Assembly: GCF_003172895.1 (NCBI RefSeq)
Contig: NZ_QGKL01000010.1
Location: 1-64,000, forward strand
Direction of reading: 5' to 3'
From: Leucothrix arctica
Lineage (GTDB): Bacteria > Pseudomonadota > Gammaproteobacteria > Thiotrichales > Thiotrichaceae
DNA: 64,000 nucleotides
A program made the position numbers and the translations under genes. Below are positions 24,405 to 33,190 of the stretch, in pieces (position 1 is the stretch's first letter; every line of letters begins with the position of its first letter). The notes under the pieces are model-generated. The model was not told where the DNA came from and did not search any database. It was given only the letters and a program-made list of their open reading frames with translations.

Positions 24405-25235
24405 ATGAAAAAAAATACAAAAACAAGATTATTTTATATTCATACTCCTAAAACTGGAGGTACTTCTGTTAATCAGTATTTTATGAAGGTTTACCCGGAG
24501 ACTGCGTTAGTACATGTAGAGGCTGATCTTAAAAAAGAAACTAACTTAGATCTTAGTAAATATGATTTTATTTCTGGGCATTTAACCTTTCCTGCTGTTA
24601 GTTCACTTTTAGATCCATCCTGGAGAAAAATGGTGACATTTAGAGAGCCGTATAGTTTTGTAGTTTCCCACATGTGTTGGATTAGACGGTTAGCTGATGA
24701 AGATCAGCGTGAGAATTTTCAAAAACACCCTGAAAATATACAAAAAATTGCAGTTAAAATGAAGGAGTTCGATTTTAGTATTGCAGGTGATATCAGAAGT
24801 TTTATTAGTTGGTTGGAGGAGTTCGGGTTTAGCTATCTTCACAATACCCAAACAATTTTTATGAGCCCTAAAAAAAATATAAAAAGAGCTTTGCTAAACC
24901 TTGATAGCGTTGAGTTTGTTGGAACCTTAGAAAGGCTTGATGACTTTTTAGCTTATGTGAGTTATAAACTATCTTTAGAGCTTACTTTCCATGGTGCGCC
25001 TATAGCTAACGTTAATAGGAGAAATTATGGTTTCAATATTGATGATACTGAGACAAGAAAAGAACTTTATCCATTGATCAAAAAAGATATAGTGCTTTAT
25101 GATGCGGCTTTGAAGCGGCTAGATAAGGATATTTTATCTTGTAAAGGATTTTCTGTTGAGCTGCCCCTAGGAAAAAAAACTTTTTTACATAATTTGAGAT
25201 TAATGGAAAAAATTAAAAACTTTAAGTTTTATTGA
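24405..25235 (+). CDS. Sulfotransferase, sulfotransferase-2 type
   Basis: 276 residues. The first motif, RLFYIHTPKTGGTSVNQYF, is the 5'-phosphosulfate loop in the HTPKTGGTS form of the carbohydrate sulfotransferase-2 family. MVTFREPYSFVVSHM is the 3'-phosphate site with Arg and Ser. It would transfer sulfate from PAPS to a glycan and is probably cytoplasmic (no signal peptide). It starts 15 nt after the giant GT, so is likely cotranscribed. Its last 36 nt overlap the 3' end of the opposite-strand sulfotransferase. Confidence 0.88.
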   Translation: MKKNTKTRLFYIHTPKTGGTSVNQYFMKVYPETALVHVEADLKKETNLDLSKYDFISGHLTFPAVSSLLDPSWRKMVTFREPYSFVVSHMCWIRRLADEDQRENFQKHPENIQKIAVKMKEFDFSIAGDIRSFISWLEEFGFSYLHNTQTIFMSPKKNIKRALLNLDSVEFVGTLERLDDFLAYVSYKLSLELTFHGAPIANVNRRNYGFNIDDTETRKELYPLIKKDIVLYDAALKRLDKDILSCKGFSVELPLGKKTFLHNLRLMEKIKNFKFY

Positions 25236-26282
25236 AATGTTTTTTTTTATTAGTTCGTAGGTGTTTTTTTCTTTTAATATTTCAATAAATATAATAGCGT
25301 AGTCATTTTTAGTCTCTTTATCATTCTCTAATATTTTTAAAAGTATTTTACTCTCATTACCTAATTTTCTCTTTAGGTATCGCATTACATTAACTAGCTT
25401 AGAGCTTTCTAATTCTTGATCGTAAAATTTTTGTTTTTTAGAGTTTATTATATTACCAATAAAATCCTCTGAAAAATTAGTATCTACTAGTTCAAAAAAC
25501 AACCTGATTGCTTTCAAGTCTATTTTAAGTTGTTTTTTTAGAATTTCAGGATTAATTAAAGTGTATTCTGCTACTCCTGAGTCAAAAGATTGTAGACAGA
25601 TATCAATTTTTGTCGCTATATTTCCTAGTGGAAAGTTATTAAGCCATCGCTTTAATTCTAAGGCTTCTAGATTATAAGAGTTATTAATATTAGGTAGTTT
25701 AGCTTCAGTTTTATTTAAATCAATAGTTTCTAACAGGTCACTTGCAATATTTCCTCCAGAAAAAAATTGAGGGCCGTAAGGGCGTAGTATTAATTTACTG
25801 CAAGTATGGCTTTTAATGTATTTTGTTAATATAGATAAGTCTTGTGCATTATGATGTGTCTTATTTGGGTATTTGTGTTTAAATAATGCCCTCTTAACGC
25901 CTTGATTGTATTGTGACTCTCTTTTTTCTATAGGGTTTCGCAAGTAACCTATAAAAATAGCATCAGGTATTGCCTCTCTTACTTCATTCATCCTCATAAA
26001 GAAAAACTCAGATGACAGTAGTAACTTGTTGTATTTATTATTAGAGTAAAAACAACTGAGCAATGAGGCGACTTTAGTAGTGTCGATGTAAAGTGAATTA
26101 TCCTCTTTACGGCTAAAAATAGAGAGAAGATTACCAGAGCTTACTCCATTTTCATCAGTTCTATGGTCAGGGTAGTATAAGCCTTGTTTTTTTAGCTCTT
26201 TTCTATGTTCACTTAGCCACTTTTGAATCGCCGAGGTTCCAGTTTTTGGTGGACCGATATGGATAAATATTTCTTTTTTCAT
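25200..26282 (-). CDS. Sulfotransferase-like protein
   Basis: 360 residues. The start EIFIHIGPPKTGTSAIQKWL is a PAPS-binding loop and closely resembles that of the 2038-3504 protein, as do LLLSSEFFFMR and the IFIGYLRNPIEKRES segment (3'-phosphate site with Arg). The C-terminal part is helical and unassigned; unlike its relative it lacks the beta-sandwich extension. It is the last gene of the exporter operon, 15 nt after the GT2 gene, which links sulfation to the material exported by the Kps system. Four sulfotransferases in total lie in the window. Confidence 0.78.
   Translation of the reverse strand: MKKEIFIHIGPPKTGTSAIQKWLSEHRKELKKQGLYYPDHRTDENGVSSGNLLSIFSRKEDNSLYIDTTKVASLLSCFYSNNKYNKLLLSSEFFFMRMNEVREAIPDAIFIGYLRNPIEKRESQYNQGVKRALFKHKYPNKTHHNAQDLSILTKYIKSHTCSKLILRPYGPQFFSGGNIASDLLETIDLNKTEAKLPNINNSYNLEALELKRWLNNFPLGNIATKIDICLQSFDSGVAEYTLINPEILKKQLKIDLKAIRLFFELVDTNFSEDFIGNIINSKKQKFYDQELESSKLVNVMRYLKRKLGNESKILLKILENDKETKNDYAIIFIEILKEKNTYELIKKNISIKLKVFNFFH
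25216..25249. terminator. Possible bidirectional terminator between convergent sulfotransferase genes
   Basis: A short AT-rich stem AAAACTT-T-AAGTTTT at 25216-25230 is followed by a T9 run on the plus strand (25240-25248) and has a T-rich flank when read on the minus strand. It sits in the 36-nt overlap of two convergent genes, where a terminator is expected. The stem is weak. Confidence 0.3.
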
Positions 26283-26297
26283 AATGATAAAAAGCCC

Positions 26298-28472
26298 CTA
26301 GAATCCAAGGCCAAAGTCTTCTCTTAGCGTTGTTAAACGTTTGTTATAGTGGGGGTCTTCATATGCTGTTGTGTTCCAAGTCTGTTTCATGAACTGGATT
26401 TCACTAGTGAGTCGTTTGCGTTTTTTCTTAGTATTGTCCTGTCCTCTAGAAAGTGATTCATAATGGTACAGTTTAGCCCAAGGAGTCCAAATATTTCTGT
26501 AGCCCAGTGCTTGAACCTTCAAACAAAAATCAACATCATTAAATGCCACGCTCAGGTGTTTTTCATTTAGTCCGCCTACCTCTAAGTAGTGCTCCTTTTT
26601 GACTAGTAAACATGCTGCTGTTACCGCGCTGTAGTTCTGTGTGCAGAGTAGCCTTTGCATATAACCTGGGTCATCACTTGGATAAAATTTATGTGAATGC
26701 CCTGCACAACCGCTTAAACCAACAATTACACCGCCATGCTGTATTCTACCATCGGGGTAGAAAAGTTTAGCTCCGACACAACCGATATCTTCACGATGGG
26801 CATGGCGAAGTAACTCACCAAGCCATTGCTTATTAATAACTTCAACATCATCGTTTAATAATAGTATAAAAGATCCCTTGGTGTGTTGTACTGCATAATT
26901 ATTAATAGCTGAATAATTGAAGGGCTTATCATAGCTTAATACACTGACTCTGTGGTCTAGTTCAATACTTTTATAGTAGTTTAAAGTCTGAGGGGCTTGA
27001 CTTTGGTTGTTAACAATAAGGATTTCGTAATTGGTATAGGCTGTATAACTTATGATGCTTTCTATAGCACGCATGAGTGTTGGTAGATTGTCTTTAGTTG
27101 GAATGATAATACTGATCAATGGTAAATTATTTGGTAATGGCCACTCTATTTTAAACACACCGTCATTACTAGTTTTCGTTGCTTTGGTACCATGAAAAGC
27201 TAAGGACTGATTTAGTATTTTTAATTGATTTTGTGATTTTAGTGGGGAAACAGTTATGCTATGGCTAGGCGAATGATATAGGATTTCTTGTATATGACCT
27301 GGCAGAGTTAAGTTTTTAATTGCAGCTTTGATCAATACTTCATATACCCATGCAAATAGGCTCGTAAATAATTGTATATTGTTCCCTTTATGGGTTAAAA
27401 GTTGCCTGTTAAAGGCAATAGTGCTTCCTATGTAATTTGTAGAAAGCATCAAGTCTGGATTCCAATCCGGTTTCAGGAAAGGGGAGTAGCGCTCTCCTTG
27501 ACCGTTAATAGCATCATGATCCGAATAGCTAATTGTGTTATCGGGGTGTTCGTTTTGGTATCGTGCGAAGGCTGATAAGGCATGAGGTGAAAAAATCGTA
27601 CCTGGTTCAGCGGTAATGAAATATTTTGCATGGGATGTATTCAACAACGTCTCAAATAATGAGTTGATGTGAAGTGGTTTACTGATGATTGTAACGTTTT
27701 CTGATGAAGCATGAACACTTGTCATGAGCACGCTTTCGGCTAACTCAATATCCCTAAATGGGGCAATTACTATGGCCTGCCAGAGCGTATAAGTTTGACA
27801 GCGAATACTGTCTAAACTTTGAGAGATTGCATCGAGATCCGCGCTGTGTGTTGCATCGATAACAAAACAAAAGCTATCTGTTTGCGTTAAATGAAGCGCT
27901 CTTTTTAATTGATTAAACTCTCGTCGGTTAATCCAGTCCTGATAGTCAGTTTCTGATTTGTGCTGCCGATTATAGAGAAGTTCATAATGACGCCATAAAT
28001 GAAGCGAGGTTTTAAAATCATGATTTGGTTTATACGTCAGCAATTTTTTATGCATGAACTTGTAAGCTGCGCCTGTTGTTAATTTTACAAAGCTCATTTT
28101 TCTCATGCTAAACGATACAGCCTTTTCAGAAGGGATAAGCGTTATATGTTTAAAGCCGCGCTTAAGTAATAAGACCCGCTTCATTATATGCTGGTTGATC
28201 ACCATAAACGTATGTGTACGAAAAGACCCATCGTCATAATCAACTTTTAGTTTACAATCCAAGTACTGCTCACTAGCTGCTATGATGATTTCGATCATAT
28301 ACCAGCCAGCAAGCAAGGGGTGCTTCTCTAGTTTTAGAATAGCGGGTAGGGAGCTAATTGACCAATCAAACGCATTATCTGATTTAGTATAATGCGAAAT
28401 GCCTGATGCTGGTGTTAGTGCATTGGTTGCATTGTAGTGATAATTAATTCTTCTAAGTAGGGACTTCTTCAC
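26298..28472 (-). CDS. GT2-family glycosyltransferase with an N-terminal beta-sandwich
   Basis: 724 residues from a GTG at 28472, 7 nt after kpsD. Residues ~1-130 are a beta-rich module. A partial GT2-like domain follows (YITAEPGTIFSPHALS, KPDWNPDLMLSTNYIG), then a complete GT2 at ~450-690 with PLISIIIPTKDNLPTLMRA, LLLNDDVEVINKQWLGE (the DD metal site) and AFNDVDFCLKVQALGYR. This two-part plan matches the giant GT at 21177. It probably adds one or two sugars to the polymer handled by the adjacent exporter. The sugar specificity cannot be read from sequence. Confidence 0.88.
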   Translation of the reverse strand: MKKSLLRRINYHYNATNALTPASGISHYTKSDNAFDWSISSLPAILKLEKHPLLAGWYMIEIIIAASEQYLDCKLKVDYDDGSFRTHTFMVINQHIMKRVLLLKRGFKHITLIPSEKAVSFSMRKMSFVKLTTGAAYKFMHKKLLTYKPNHDFKTSLHLWRHYELLYNRQHKSETDYQDWINRREFNQLKRALHLTQTDSFCFVIDATHSADLDAISQSLDSIRCQTYTLWQAIVIAPFRDIELAESVLMTSVHASSENVTIISKPLHINSLFETLLNTSHAKYFITAEPGTIFSPHALSAFARYQNEHPDNTISYSDHDAINGQGERYSPFLKPDWNPDLMLSTNYIGSTIAFNRQLLTHKGNNIQLFTSLFAWVYEVLIKAAIKNLTLPGHIQEILYHSPSHSITVSPLKSQNQLKILNQSLAFHGTKATKTSNDGVFKIEWPLPNNLPLISIIIPTKDNLPTLMRAIESIISYTAYTNYEILIVNNQSQAPQTLNYYKSIELDHRVSVLSYDKPFNYSAINNYAVQHTKGSFILLLNDDVEVINKQWLGELLRHAHREDIGCVGAKLFYPDGRIQHGGVIVGLSGCAGHSHKFYPSDDPGYMQRLLCTQNYSAVTAACLLVKKEHYLEVGGLNEKHLSVAFNDVDFCLKVQALGYRNIWTPWAKLYHYESLSRGQDNTKKKRKRLTSEIQFMKQTWNTTAYEDPHYNKRLTTLREDFGLGF

Positions 28473-30119: not shown

Positions 30120-31214
30120 TTATGCCCAGCCTAAGTTATCTTTGATGGCAGAAATAAGTAGCGCGAATATTCCCCATAGCATTATGCTCGCTAAGAATAC
30201 GCTAAATGTTGAGTAGATGCGCTCTGGCTCTAATGATTCGTCGGTCAAGTGTGGTGGGACAATAATGTCTAAGTATCGTTGTTTTTGGCTTGCATCTATT
30301 TGGGCCTGTTTTAGGCTTGAAATAGCTGTCAGATATAGCTTTTCAGCAAAGGCTAGCTCAGAGGTTAATTGTTCGGTATCCAATACTACTTGGGTGACCG
30401 TTTTTCCTGTTGCAGGGTCTGCCCATTTAGCTTGCTGCGCAAGTGTTTGCTTTTTTAGTGAGTTGATTTCGTTGACAAGAAACCTGACTTTGAGAGAGTT
30501 ACTTTGCATGTATGTACTAAGGCTTTTTAGTTCGGCTTCTTTAGTTGCGACCTGTTGTTTTAGGGTTGCGACTATGCCTTGCTCTGCTTGAGCGGCTTGT
30601 TCTGCGCTGATGACTTTTTCTTTCTCATTGAAGCGTGCCAGTCTAGAGCGAATAGAGAGTAGGTCTGTTTCTGCCTTAATGACTTCATCCTGAGCGAAGA
30701 CTAATGCGTCAGAGCGCGCTTCTGAAGATAAGTTGTTGATAAAACGCTCGTTGATTCGTAATACAAGGCTTGAAATCTGTTTTGCTACTTTTGAGTCAAA
30801 AGCGGTAACTTCTAGTTTAGATATACCGGAAGCACTGTCGTAGGAAATGTTAATAATTTCATTATCCCAGTAGTCGAGTAGGTCTTCTTGGGTCGCATCA
30901 GCTGGGATTCTTGCCCACCAATCATACTCTGGGCTGCCGTAGTGTTTCATAATGTCAATATTTGGCAGCACTTTGCTTAGAAAGTCATGTGAGACACTGT
31001 AGTTGAGTACGGCAAGTGAGTCGGGGGTTGATGCAGCCATTCCTGTCAATCCGGTGACCATACCAAGCACATCGGTTGTACCTTGTTTATTTCCTTGGAT
31101 GATATATCTTGATTCTGAAATGTATTTATCACTGGCATAGTTTGAGTAATATATACCTGCAATGATTGTAGGAATTATTACAAATAGAAAAAAAGTAAAC
31201 TTGTTCGACAGCAT
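30120..31214 (-). CDS. kpsE: Capsule export inner-membrane protein, KpsE-like (PCP family)
   Basis: 364 residues. One N-terminal membrane segment (FTFFLFVIIPTIIAGIYY), a long periplasmic coiled coil (~160-260, rich in E, Q and K with VATLKQQVATKEAEL), the family proline-rich IVPPHLTDESLEPER before the C-terminus, and a second membrane segment (FSVFLASIMLWGIFALLI). This is the BexC/KpsE layout. The protein would bridge the KpsMT transporter and KpsD. Its ATG lies 4 nt after kpsT. Confidence 0.92.
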   Translation of the reverse strand: MLSNKFTFFLFVIIPTIIAGIYYSNYASDKYISESRYIIQGNKQGTTDVLGMVTGLTGMAASTPDSLAVLNYSVSHDFLSKVLPNIDIMKHYGSPEYDWWARIPADATQEDLLDYWDNEIINISYDSASGISKLEVTAFDSKVAKQISSLVLRINERFINNLSSEARSDALVFAQDEVIKAETDLLSIRSRLARFNEKEKVISAEQAAQAEQGIVATLKQQVATKEAELKSLSTYMQSNSLKVRFLVNEINSLKKQTLAQQAKWADPATGKTVTQVVLDTEQLTSELAFAEKLYLTAISSLKQAQIDASQKQRYLDIIVPPHLTDESLEPERIYSTFSVFLASIMLWGIFALLISAIKDNLGWA

Positions 31215-31218
31215 ATTA

Positions 31219-31881
31219 TTAAGAGTCCTTTTTTAATACTTTTAATGCTTCTATGCCAGACTGCACATCGTTAAAGCTTTGTAGGCGGCCCTCATGGTCA
31301 ATTACCACAGAACAACTGGCGTATTTTTTCAAGATATCAGGGTTTCCAGCGGTGACAACTATGGTTGATTGAGTGGTGAGTTCCATAAGTTTACTTTGGA
31401 TTTTGTTATTAAATTTTGGCTGTGGATGATGCAGTCCACCATTGAGTTGATAAATATCACTTTTCATCAGTAACGAAGTAGAGATAGCAATTTTTCGTCT
31501 TAGTACTGGAGTGTAACTTTTTGCTTTCTGTTTCAGTTCTTTTTTTATTTCGGCAAACTCTTTAATTTCATGGATAACTTTGTTGGTTTCTTGTCCATAA
31601 AGCTTGCAGATAAATCTTATATTCTCCTCGCCGCTCATTTCCCTATGAAAATAGCTTGAGTCGCCAATTAGGCTTGTAAAGATTCCTTCTCTTATGATAC
31701 TTCCCCTTGTGGGCTGTTCAATACCTGATATTAGTTTTAAAAGGGACTTAGAGGACCTTTCATACACAGACAAAATAGCGACACTCTTTTGTTCTACAAA
31801 TGAAGTGCATACTTCGTTAAGGTCGTAAGTTTGTCGTTTACGATTGTGAATTTTTGAAACATTAAGAAACTCAAGCTTCAT
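31219..31881 (-). CDS. kpsT: KpsT homologue with degenerate ATPase motifs
   Basis: 220 residues, normal KpsT length, and clearly alignable to KpsT end to end (SVAI near 33-36, the GEEN segment, and DVQSGIEALK near the C-terminus). Every catalytic motif is altered. Walker A reads SVYERSSKS (38-46) with all three glycines gone, and in an ungapped alignment the lysine position holds Ser44. The signature reads YTPVL (123-127). Walker B reads IYQLNG (143-148), without Asp and Glu. The H-loop reads TAGN (177-180). The frame is uninterrupted and overlaps kpsM as ATGA. It looks like a preserved but ATPase-dead subunit, unless another nucleotide-binding domain partners it. Confidence 0.85.
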   Translation of the reverse strand: MKLEFLNVSKIHNRKRQTYDLNEVCTSFVEQKSVAILSVYERSSKSLLKLISGIEQPTRGSIIREGIFTSLIGDSSYFHREMSGEENIRFICKLYGQETNKVIHEIKEFAEIKKELKQKAKSYTPVLRRKIAISTSLLMKSDIYQLNGGLHHPQPKFNNKIQSKLMELTTQSTIVVTAGNPDILKKYASCSVVIDHEGRLQSFNDVQSGIEALKVLKKDS

Positions 31882-32663
31882 ACTCGTTGCCTTTTTTGAG
31901 TTAGTTTCTGCATCAATAACCCTGTGAGGAGTGCGATGGTAGTAAATGTTAACAGGTAGCCCATATCAAATAATGTGCTTTCCCATGATCGGTAGAAGCT
32001 GTCCCTCATAGACTCTATTATATGCAGGAGGGGGTTATATTTTAGTATTGCTATAACTTCCGCAGGGAATCTTTGGTCTGCAACAAAGAAAACACCAGAC
32101 ATAAGAAAAAGAGGCATGCTTAATATTTTCCATACTTTTTCGTATGAAGGAACAATGGCTGAGACAGATACATTTAGAAGGCCGACACCATAGCCGAGTA
32201 TGATAGATGTGATTGTGATGAGTAGTATTCCTAAAAGTGAATCTACTCTGTAGTCCCAATAACCAAAATGTCCTAGACCTATTAATATAGTTGCTGCAGA
32301 GATTAATATAATAACCGTTTCTGAAAGAAGAAAAGCAATCGAAATATCAAAAGGTGTTGCGAGGGTATTGTTTAATATATTCCTAGATGATTTGTTAATT
32401 TGCAGCATTTTATTTGTTAGACCGATGCATAAGTTGTAAGGAATTATGCCCGTTGCTAAAAAAAGGACTAAATTATCTCCAATTGCAGGACTTCGTCCCA
32501 AAAATGTAAACATTGTAGTCAACATTACTATTTGGAAGAGCGGTTTAGCAAGTGCAGCTAAGTAACCAATTTTACTTTTGCCATGCTCAGTCAGAATCGA
32601 GTGTATAAACAGCGCATTTATAATCCTAGTTTTGACACTAATTGCCTTAAGAAACGCTCCCAC
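31878..32663 (-). CDS. kpsM: Capsule ABC-2 exporter permease, KpsM-like
   Basis: 261 residues with six hydrophobic segments, the ABC-2 membrane-domain layout. The N-terminal TRIINALFIHSILTEHGKSK and IGYLAALAKPLFQ correspond to the conserved amphipathic and first-membrane region of KpsM/BexB, and PLFLMSGVFFVADQRFP with YNPLLHIIESMRDSFY to the conserved C-terminal half. Start is GTG 32663, one nucleotide after the lipoprotein stop, so it relies on coupling. It should flip a lipid-linked capsule chain across the inner membrane with kpsT, but the kpsT here lacks recognisable ATPase motifs. Confidence 0.92.
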   Translation of the reverse strand: MGAFLKAISVKTRIINALFIHSILTEHGKSKIGYLAALAKPLFQIVMLTTMFTFLGRSPAIGDNLVLFLATGIIPYNLCIGLTNKMLQINKSSRNILNNTLATPFDISIAFLLSETVIILISAATILIGLGHFGYWDYRVDSLLGILLITITSIILGYGVGLLNVSVSAIVPSYEKVWKILSMPLFLMSGVFFVADQRFPAEVIAILKYNPLLHIIESMRDSFYRSWESTLFDMGYLLTFTTIALLTGLLMQKLTQKRQRV

Positions 32664-32664
32664 T

Positions 32665-32997
32665 CTAGGGGATTCTTACAACTAAGATTGGCGCACTTTC
32701 CTTCCAAGCCCCATCCACCTTACACGCCGTGCGACTGAAGTCAGATGATATGTTTCTACATTCATGACCATTAGCAGAGTAGTACCTGTAAGCACTATTA
32801 CTTGCATTAGAGCTGTTCAACTTTGTCAACGTAGCAGAGTCCAAACTACCACGACGAGGCTGCGAAAAGTTGTATTCCAGCGGCTTGGTAGAAGCAGTCG
32901 GAGTCAATGAGGTTCCAAGAAACCTTGCTTTGAGCGAACTACAGCCACTCAGCGAAATTACGGCTATCAAACTGAGAAGAATTTTTTGATTTTTCAT
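32665..32997 (-). CDS. Small lipoprotein at the head of the exporter operon
   Basis: 110 residues from ATG 32997; an in-frame extension to 33126 is rejected because the signal peptide begins at 32997. MKNQKILLSLIAVISLSGC carries a lipobox LSGC with Cys19. The mature part has a YRYYSANGHECR segment and a paired ACKVDGAWKES, giving two cysteines that could form a disulfide. This recalls small lipoproteins found in exopolysaccharide clusters (DVU3141-like), a tentative match. One nucleotide separates it from kpsM, so a role in export or assembly is likely. Confidence 0.7.
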   Translation of the reverse strand: MKNQKILLSLIAVISLSGCSSLKARFLGTSLTPTASTKPLEYNFSQPRRGSLDSATLTKLNSSNASNSAYRYYSANGHECRNISSDFSRTACKVDGAWKESAPILVVRIP

Positions 32998-33190
32998 GTG
33001 TGATTTTTTAACTTCGATTGGGGTACTGTGCAAAGATAGTGCAGATAATACTTTTATGTTGTTATTTGCTAGTTTATCACTGCGAATATAACAACTTCTC
33101 TGACGAGTGGCAAAAGGATAATCCATTAAACACTTTTAGTGTCATGAAACTTGGCTCTAAGTATCAATGATTTTTAAGGAATGACAGAGC

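Follow-up and report, generated by a model that had tools for sequence, protein, structure and literature searches.

The kps locus of Leucothrix arctica encodes a full-length homologue of the capsule-export ATPase KpsT whose product, to judge from its sequence, is nearly certainly dead as an ATPase, and which nevertheless seems to be kept by selection in three species of the genus. Our best explanation, a tentative one that may well be right, is that KpsM and KpsT together form a pseudo-ABC transporter which is kept as the non-hydrolysing structural base of the KpsE–KpsD conduit. The features of the locus are collected in Table 1. By the window we mean the whole stretch of 64,000 nucleotides that was analysed; the genome it belongs to (G000) comprises 4.75 Mb in 44 contigs and is 99.58% complete.

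Table 1. Genes of the kps locus and, separately, of another ABC exporter (positions in the window unless another locus is named)
Feature	Position	Strand	Evidence or remark
Putative sulfotransferase, capsule region	25200..26282	(-)	PF13469 6.7e-5, weak, below Pfam cut-off
Family 2 glycosyltransferase, same gene run	26298..28472	(-)	PF00535 1.3e-16
KpsD-like outer-membrane polysaccharide export protein, 545 aa	28480..30117	(-)	PF02563
KpsE/CtrB/BexC-type periplasmic cage protein, 364 aa	30120..31214	(-)	TIGR01010 1.5e-72; 244.7 bits, under that model's curated cut-off of 437.5
KpsT homologue, nearly certainly ATPase-dead	31219..31881	(-)	220 aa, full length, every catalytic motif lost
KpsM permease, ABC-2 type, 261 aa	31878..32663	(-)	PF01061 48.8 bits (cut-off 26.9); overlaps kpsT by ATGA
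Small putative lipoprotein adjoining kpsM	32665..33126	(-)	ORF of 153 aa; likely start near 32997, ~110 aa
HlyD-type adaptor, 589-aa double ATPase, two ABC-2 permeases	L187:2059-7163 (C37, own genome) and L188		

The reading frame of kpsT starts with ATG and runs through its 220 codons with zero internal stops. It aligns to the KpsTs of the family almost without gaps; the original prediction had called the alignment gap-free, which overlooks small N-terminal indels and one additional residue near position 195. In this alignment the Walker A residues G38/G41/G43/K44 are replaced by S/E/S/S and the motif reads SVYERSSKS, which does not match GxxGxGK[ST]; a lysine is present at 45, one position after the K44 site. 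The signature, YS.GM in the family, reads YTPVL, the Asp and the catalytic Glu of Walker B have become NG (N147, G148), D154 of the D-loop is replaced by Q and the H-loop histidine H179 by G. The loss of the Walker A, signature, Walker B and H-loop residues in an intact frame as well as the overlap with kpsM, four bases at 31878–31881 on the minus strand, had been described beforehand and are all found as described. With the Pfam model ABC_tran (PF00005) the protein reaches 14 bits, where the cut-off is 25, and the best NCBIfam match reaches 56.7 bits against a cut-off of 400, but among solved structures phmmer finds KpsT (8tsh_A) as the best match with E=2.5e-19 over residues 21–214. Thus, the homology to KpsT is clear and it is the catalytic residues that are missing; in addition to the sequence homology, the position beside kpsM and kpsE argues for common descent with KpsT-type ABC ATPases. 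A single-sequence structure prediction of the protein had a mean pLDDT of 36. A sequencing error or frameshift as the cause was rejected: our own patterns for Walker A, signature and Walker B gave zero matches in the six frames of 31101–32000, so that no neighbouring frame restores the motifs, and as the loss recurs in two further genomes a sequencing error is very unlikely.

Among the seven genomes of the genus KpsT is matched at E<=1e-6 in three, G000, G001 (L005) and G004 (L004), and all three share the gene order small lipoprotein-like ORF, kpsM, kpsT, kpsE. At the same threshold KpsT was not found in G002 (100% complete), G003 (97%), G005 (56%) and G006 (69%), of which the last two are weak absences because these genomes are incomplete. 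The alignment of KpsTs across the genus, which had been proposed as a check, extends the loss to 3/3 forms: the Walker A Lys is replaced by S/T/V, the signature Ser by T/A/Q, the catalytic Glu by G/D/N and the H-loop His by G/N/N. The loss has proceeded partly via different residues. In G004 the aspartates of Walker B and of the D-loop are still present, in G001 the signature Gly is, and both have kept some of the Walker A glycines. In the family, KpsT was found at E<=1e-15 in 28/63 genomes, and K44, S124, G126, D147, E148 and H179 are all intact in the 25/25 KpsTs from outside the genus which serve as canonical rows of our alignment, one of them (L027) partial. Two further KpsTs outside these rows, those of G049 (L136) and G206 (L138), are canonical by eye, as far as the motifs go. 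The order-level search covered the same 63 genomes; its longer matches, open frames of ~400–620 aa, are probably of the Wzt type. An even draw of 369 genomes across the class, with at most eight candidates scored in each, gave three matches at E<=1e-40, namely the window's own KpsT and two canonical ones, a design that would miss independent losses. A search of contigs gave one relative, which looks by eye like a canonical ABC ATPase of the drug type from a Phycisphaerae MAG. Among the papers listed by a literature search that leaves out most subscription journals, none was seen to describe a dead KpsT.

A phylogenetic tree places the three dead KpsTs on one side of a branch with a support of 99/98 (98% of 200 bootstrap trees), and they have 8 residues in common each of which occurs in at most 1/25 canonical rows. 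Because of this branch and the shared rare residues, the sequences would fit a single ancestral loss of the motifs. The dead forms have very long branches, however, which makes the single-loss tree uncertain.

The dead KpsTs evolve fast: pairs within the genus are 34% identical, as against 64–71% for the canonical KpsTs of the control genus g7, at matched divergence of KpsD (68% identity within the genus and 62–70% in g7). Third codon positions of the dead kpsT pairs differ at 62–69%, where 71–73% are expected at random, while first and second positions differ at 53–56% and 34–37%. In our own pairwise codon model omega=1 was rejected in 3/3 dead pairs (2dlnL 74.8, 52.7 and 63.2); given the saturation of silent sites, we rely on this rejection and not on the omega values of the pairs. 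When neutral drift was simulated without indels, the frame stayed open in 47/1000 runs at 0.1 changes per site and in 8/1000 at 0.2, and in 0/1000 at 0.3 as well as at 0.5. Silent sites near saturation, open frames in all three species and the rejection of omega=1 taken together suggest that KpsT is kept by selection, in line with the original prediction of a dead yet maintained subunit, and it is well supported that kpsT is functional and not debris. If, on the other hand, the motifs were lost late and in each lineage separately, some of the purifying signal would be older than the loss.

The loss of conserved residues is not confined to the ATP motifs. In the canonical rows 81 columns are at least 95% conserved; the dead forms have lost 46/66 cells of such columns within the ATP motifs and 91/177 outside of them, a modest excess at the motifs (permutation p 0.0375). 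As KpsT evolves far faster than in relatives, part of this pattern is relaxed constraint. Sixteen conserved columns outside the motifs are kept in 3/3 dead forms, and 7 of them lie at residues 84–95, directly following the Q-loop. In ABC transporters generally, the segment just after the Q-loop lies in the permease-facing helical domain.

The permease has changed as well, which the original prediction had not noticed. KpsM of the window is recognised as an ABC-2 membrane protein and matches StKpsM in phmmer with E=5.8e-22, and with 82.1 of 300 bits it lies below the cut-off of the NCBIfam KpsM equivalog. In an alignment with 24 canonical rows (for G009 the search gave no KpsM within its threshold), several residues present in 24/24 canonical rows are replaced in the genus: R at position 26 by E/E/K, W at 36 by A/A/S, E at 40 by K/K/Q, V at 102 by A/I/I and R at 111 by F/I/N. 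The family-conserved Y99 is also lost in the KpsM of the window. By alignment, and with an offset of three inferred by counting along the chain, positions 26 and 36 correspond to the canyon residues Arg35 and Trp45 of StKpsM, so that the window's KpsM has E and A in their places. According to PMC11041684, export is lost when Arg35 is replaced by Lys or Ala or Trp45 by Phe or Leu, and Arg89 and Arg94 are also required. The Arg89 column is basic in 1/24 canonical rows and I/I/I in the genus, the Arg94 column basic in 4/24 canonical rows and K/K/R in the genus. Overall, KpsM identity amounts to 42–51% in the genus versus 49–56% in g7. A second KpsM was not found in the window's own genome at E<=1e-8.

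How far the other export proteins share in these losses was judged by residues that are invariant among three genomes, each of a different genus outside Leucothrix (for KpsD, among two such genomes), with three g7 genomes serving as control. In the genus and in g7, respectively, 57% vs 17% of the conserved cells are lost in KpsT, 42% vs 22% in KpsM, 23% vs 22% in KpsE and 21% vs 22% in KpsD. By these counts it is mainly the pump, KpsT and KpsM, that has lost family-invariant residues, whereas KpsE and KpsD are as well conserved as their counterparts in relatives. The comparisons of synteny, identity and conserved cells used 9 of the 28 KpsT-bearing genomes; in G007, KpsD and the lipoprotein are unmatched in the stretch fetched, and its KpsD row is therefore absent from the identity and conserved-cell comparisons. 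The small putative lipoprotein ORF adjoining kpsM is syntenic in relatives (L004, L005, L092) and evolves fast, the window's copy being without Pfam match at E<=1; it is possible that it is an unrecognised part of the export system.

The capsule pathway beside the dead kpsMT looks otherwise complete as far as its genes can tell. Within the genus KpsE occurs in the same 3/7 genomes as KpsM, KpsT and the KpsC/KpsS-type genes (in the family, KpsE in 29/63 genomes and KpsC/KpsS-type genes, PF05159, in 36/63), and the latter are confined to exactly the three genomes with kpsMT; in G004 (64% complete) only KpsC was found and KpsS was not. KpsS and KpsC of the own genome keep the QxxxD and EEGY/EDGF motifs of the Kdo transferases of group 2 capsules. 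In PMC10148158 the catalytic residues of such transferases are named as the nucleophile Asp of QxxxD, the base Glu66 and an acid His, and in our reading of the alignment it is EDGF that would carry Glu66. The contig of KpsS and KpsC, which is not that of the window, encodes in addition an SDR, a sulfatase-fold membrane protein, a formyltransferase-like protein, an aminotransferase-fold enzyme and, within the capsule locus (L101:6459-14006), a type I polyketide synthase of 2515 aa with a single module. The polyketide synthase together with the aminotransferase-fold, SDR and formyltransferase-like genes possibly makes an unusual lipid anchor for the capsule.

KpsC of the own genome (L101:14219-17230, C31) carries an additional N-terminal domain that matches the sialyltransferase family GT29 (1.5e-13). 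That this fusion is a change of the genus tied to the dead KpsT was rejected, since in G022, G042 and G044, which belong to other genera and have a canonical KpsT, matches to GT29 are likewise found beside or in frame with KpsC, as placed by coordinates. Elsewhere on C31 (L100:161-991) a protein with a signal-like start has a long run of NPCAAK repeats. In the window two converging sulfotransferase-like genes with weak matches (24405–25235 and 25200–26282) overlap at their ends by 36 bases, and sulfotransferase-like proteins seem, by eye, to be a repeated feature of capsule regions in relatives. Also by eye, the stretch 41984–64000 and its continuation into L098 hold a separate exopolysaccharide cluster with a NusG-like antiterminator, a WcaJ-like initiating transferase, flippase- and polymerase-like membrane proteins, GDP-sugar genes and Wza-like and Wzc-like genes.

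Since the dead engine and the changed KpsM stay intact beside this seemingly complete pathway, capsule export in the genus probably draws on another source of energy. We suggest that KpsM and KpsT have turned into a pseudo-ABC transporter in the genus (3/7 genomes) and that the pair would still assemble within the KpsE cage as a non-hydrolysing base, that is as an adaptor or a gate; that KpsM and KpsT bind each other and KpsE is what we infer from their conservation. This base would couple capsule synthesis to the KpsE–KpsD conduit, and the movement of the glycolipid or polymer would be powered from elsewhere, either by chain elongation through a passive path or by a flippase or a pump. We are more doubtful of the wider claim that this amounts to a KpsMT-type capsule secretion without ATP hydrolysis of its own, in which a passive or scaffolding channel works while the rest of the machine and the Kdo-linked pathway are active. 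Three options had originally been offered for the dead subunit: of these the non-hydrolysing adaptor fits best, a transporter powered differently is possible, and pairing with an active nucleotide-binding domain (NBD) encoded elsewhere is disfavoured (see below).

It is unlikely, although not without arguments, that KpsM and KpsT are instead late decaying relics and that the capsule leaves by another route, for instance via a flippase of the Wzx type or a different ABC pump. The fast evolution of KpsT at matched KpsD divergence would be expected of a relic, 4/7 genomes of the genus are without a match for the kps genes searched (two of the four being incomplete), and the window carries an apparently separate polysaccharide cluster. 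Against it, all three kpsT frames are open with omega=1 rejected, the identity of KpsM is close to that in g7, the losses in KpsE and KpsD do not exceed those of the control and the KpsC and KpsS motifs examined are intact. Mere relaxed selection in decayed loci, which the original prediction had named as the outcome that would speak against it, is not what the locus shows, since KpsE and KpsD lose no more than in the control genus; KpsT itself evolves at a much higher rate than its canonical counterparts. A flippase of the polysaccharide family PF01943 is present in 7/7 genomes of the genus irrespective of kps, which likewise speaks against the relic reading. As for another pump, the own genome has six ABC-2 permeases besides KpsM. 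Three of them (C7, C20, C22) have close counterparts (77–92%) in G002, which is without kps, and one (C37:78529) was unmatched in direct comparison and adjoins, by eye, a NatA-like ATPase. The permease pair C37:574437/575557 has close counterparts (76–77%) only in the kps-bearing G001 and 27% identity in G003; none was found in the kps-minus G002 or in the kps-bearing G004 (64% complete). These permeases belong with an HlyD-type adaptor and the double ATPase (Table 1) in a gene order that is identical in G001, which we take to be the build of a drug-type exporter. This system, shared by the two kps-bearing genomes G000 and G001 while the near-complete G002 gave no match and G003 one of only 27% identity, is possibly a substitute exporter, or possibly a plain drug pump. 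That it was not found in G004 (64% complete) speaks against the former role, and with so few genomes its kps-linked distribution may be chance.

It is quite unlikely in our estimate that KpsM–KpsT is a purely passive ATP-free conduit, with synthases pushing the chain via KpsM into the KpsE–KpsD tube in a manner comparable to synthase-dependent secretion. The state of the locus would suit such a conduit, as the engine is gone and the conduit genes and the KpsC and KpsS motifs are intact, and the basic residue at the Arg94 equivalent of KpsM in all three genus forms, which few canonical rows have, points in the same direction. In E. coli K1 capsule synthesis and export are physically coupled, according to PMC2408645. 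Nevertheless, the lipid anchor would still have to cross the membrane, and the equivalents of Arg35 and Trp45 in KpsM are lost.

ATP hydrolysis by the KpsM–KpsT complex itself is very unlikely from its sequence, unless KpsT were replaced altogether. A composite ATP site of an ABC transporter consists of the Walker A of one subunit and the signature of the other. As the window's KpsT is without both, one intact partner NBD cannot rebuild an ATP site with it. Neither was such a partner found: with an intact KpsT as query and 129/129 candidates scored, the own genome yielded no second KpsT/Wzt-type ATPase that could supply a complete site, so that the search for another kpsT-type ATPase proposed at the outset came out negative. 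It gave 55 ABC ATPase matches at E<=1e-3, of which the next best after the dead kpsT is a general ABC ATPase (E=2.4e-13, 31%) that lies, by eye, between znuA- and znuB-like genes, and a profile of the dead KpsTs found one match at E<=1e-20, kpsT itself (47/97 first-look candidates scored). Sharing of ATPases between ABC importers is known. An ATPase of another type that is borrowed for the role of the second NBD is possible, but that KpsM is in fact driven by an NBD of another ABC system, as a homodimer replacing KpsT or in a mixed complex, is decidedly improbable: the wealth of ABC ATPases in the genome and the double ATPase shared with G001 and not seen in G002 speak for it, whereas those genomes of the genus that lack kps also contain ATPase matches of similar strength, the next best match of the own genome sits amid the znuA- and znuB-like genes, a heterodimer with the dead KpsT would have zero complete composite sites, the double ATPase has its own adaptor and two permeases, and conserved KpsM residues at 99–111 are altered as well.

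With regard to known systems, the set of KpsS, SDR, sulfatase-fold, aminotransferase-type protein, 2515-aa polyketide synthase and KpsC resembles the rkp and wcb capsule loci with a type I polyketide synthase, and we presume a finer correspondence to rkpG–J. An apparently identical set occurs together with a canonical KpsT in the g7 genome G039, so that the loss in KpsT cannot be put down to the polyketide synthase–capsule locus alone. PMC3908369 describes the polyketide synthase genes rkpA and wcbR beside capsule genes. The retention of an NBD with decayed motifs likens the pseudo-ABC transporter proposed here to the exporters with one degenerate site, TM287/288, BmrCD and MsRv1273c/72c. These exporters have a gene for a second NBD and keep one site complete, whereas here the single kpsT is dead in both its Walker and its signature halves and a partner was not found.

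KpsMT export is held to require ATP hydrolysis, and in an engineered E. coli system E151Q, a single Walker B change in KpsT, abolishes secretion (PMC11041684). A lineage without the engine and without known substrate-handling residues, but with the cage, the conduit and the Kdo enzymes, raises the question which of the functions of KpsMT belong to its structure and which to its motor, and whether synthases can push polysaccharide out. In its gene set, in the homology of KpsM and KpsT, and in the presence of KpsE, KpsD and KpsC/KpsS, the locus resembles the KpsMT–KpsE–KpsD group 2 exporter as represented by StKpsMT (PDB 8tsh series). It differs from StKpsMT in a KpsT without the ATPase motifs, among them the catalytic Walker B Glu whose exchange kills StKpsT, and in a KpsM without the equivalents of Arg35 and Trp45.
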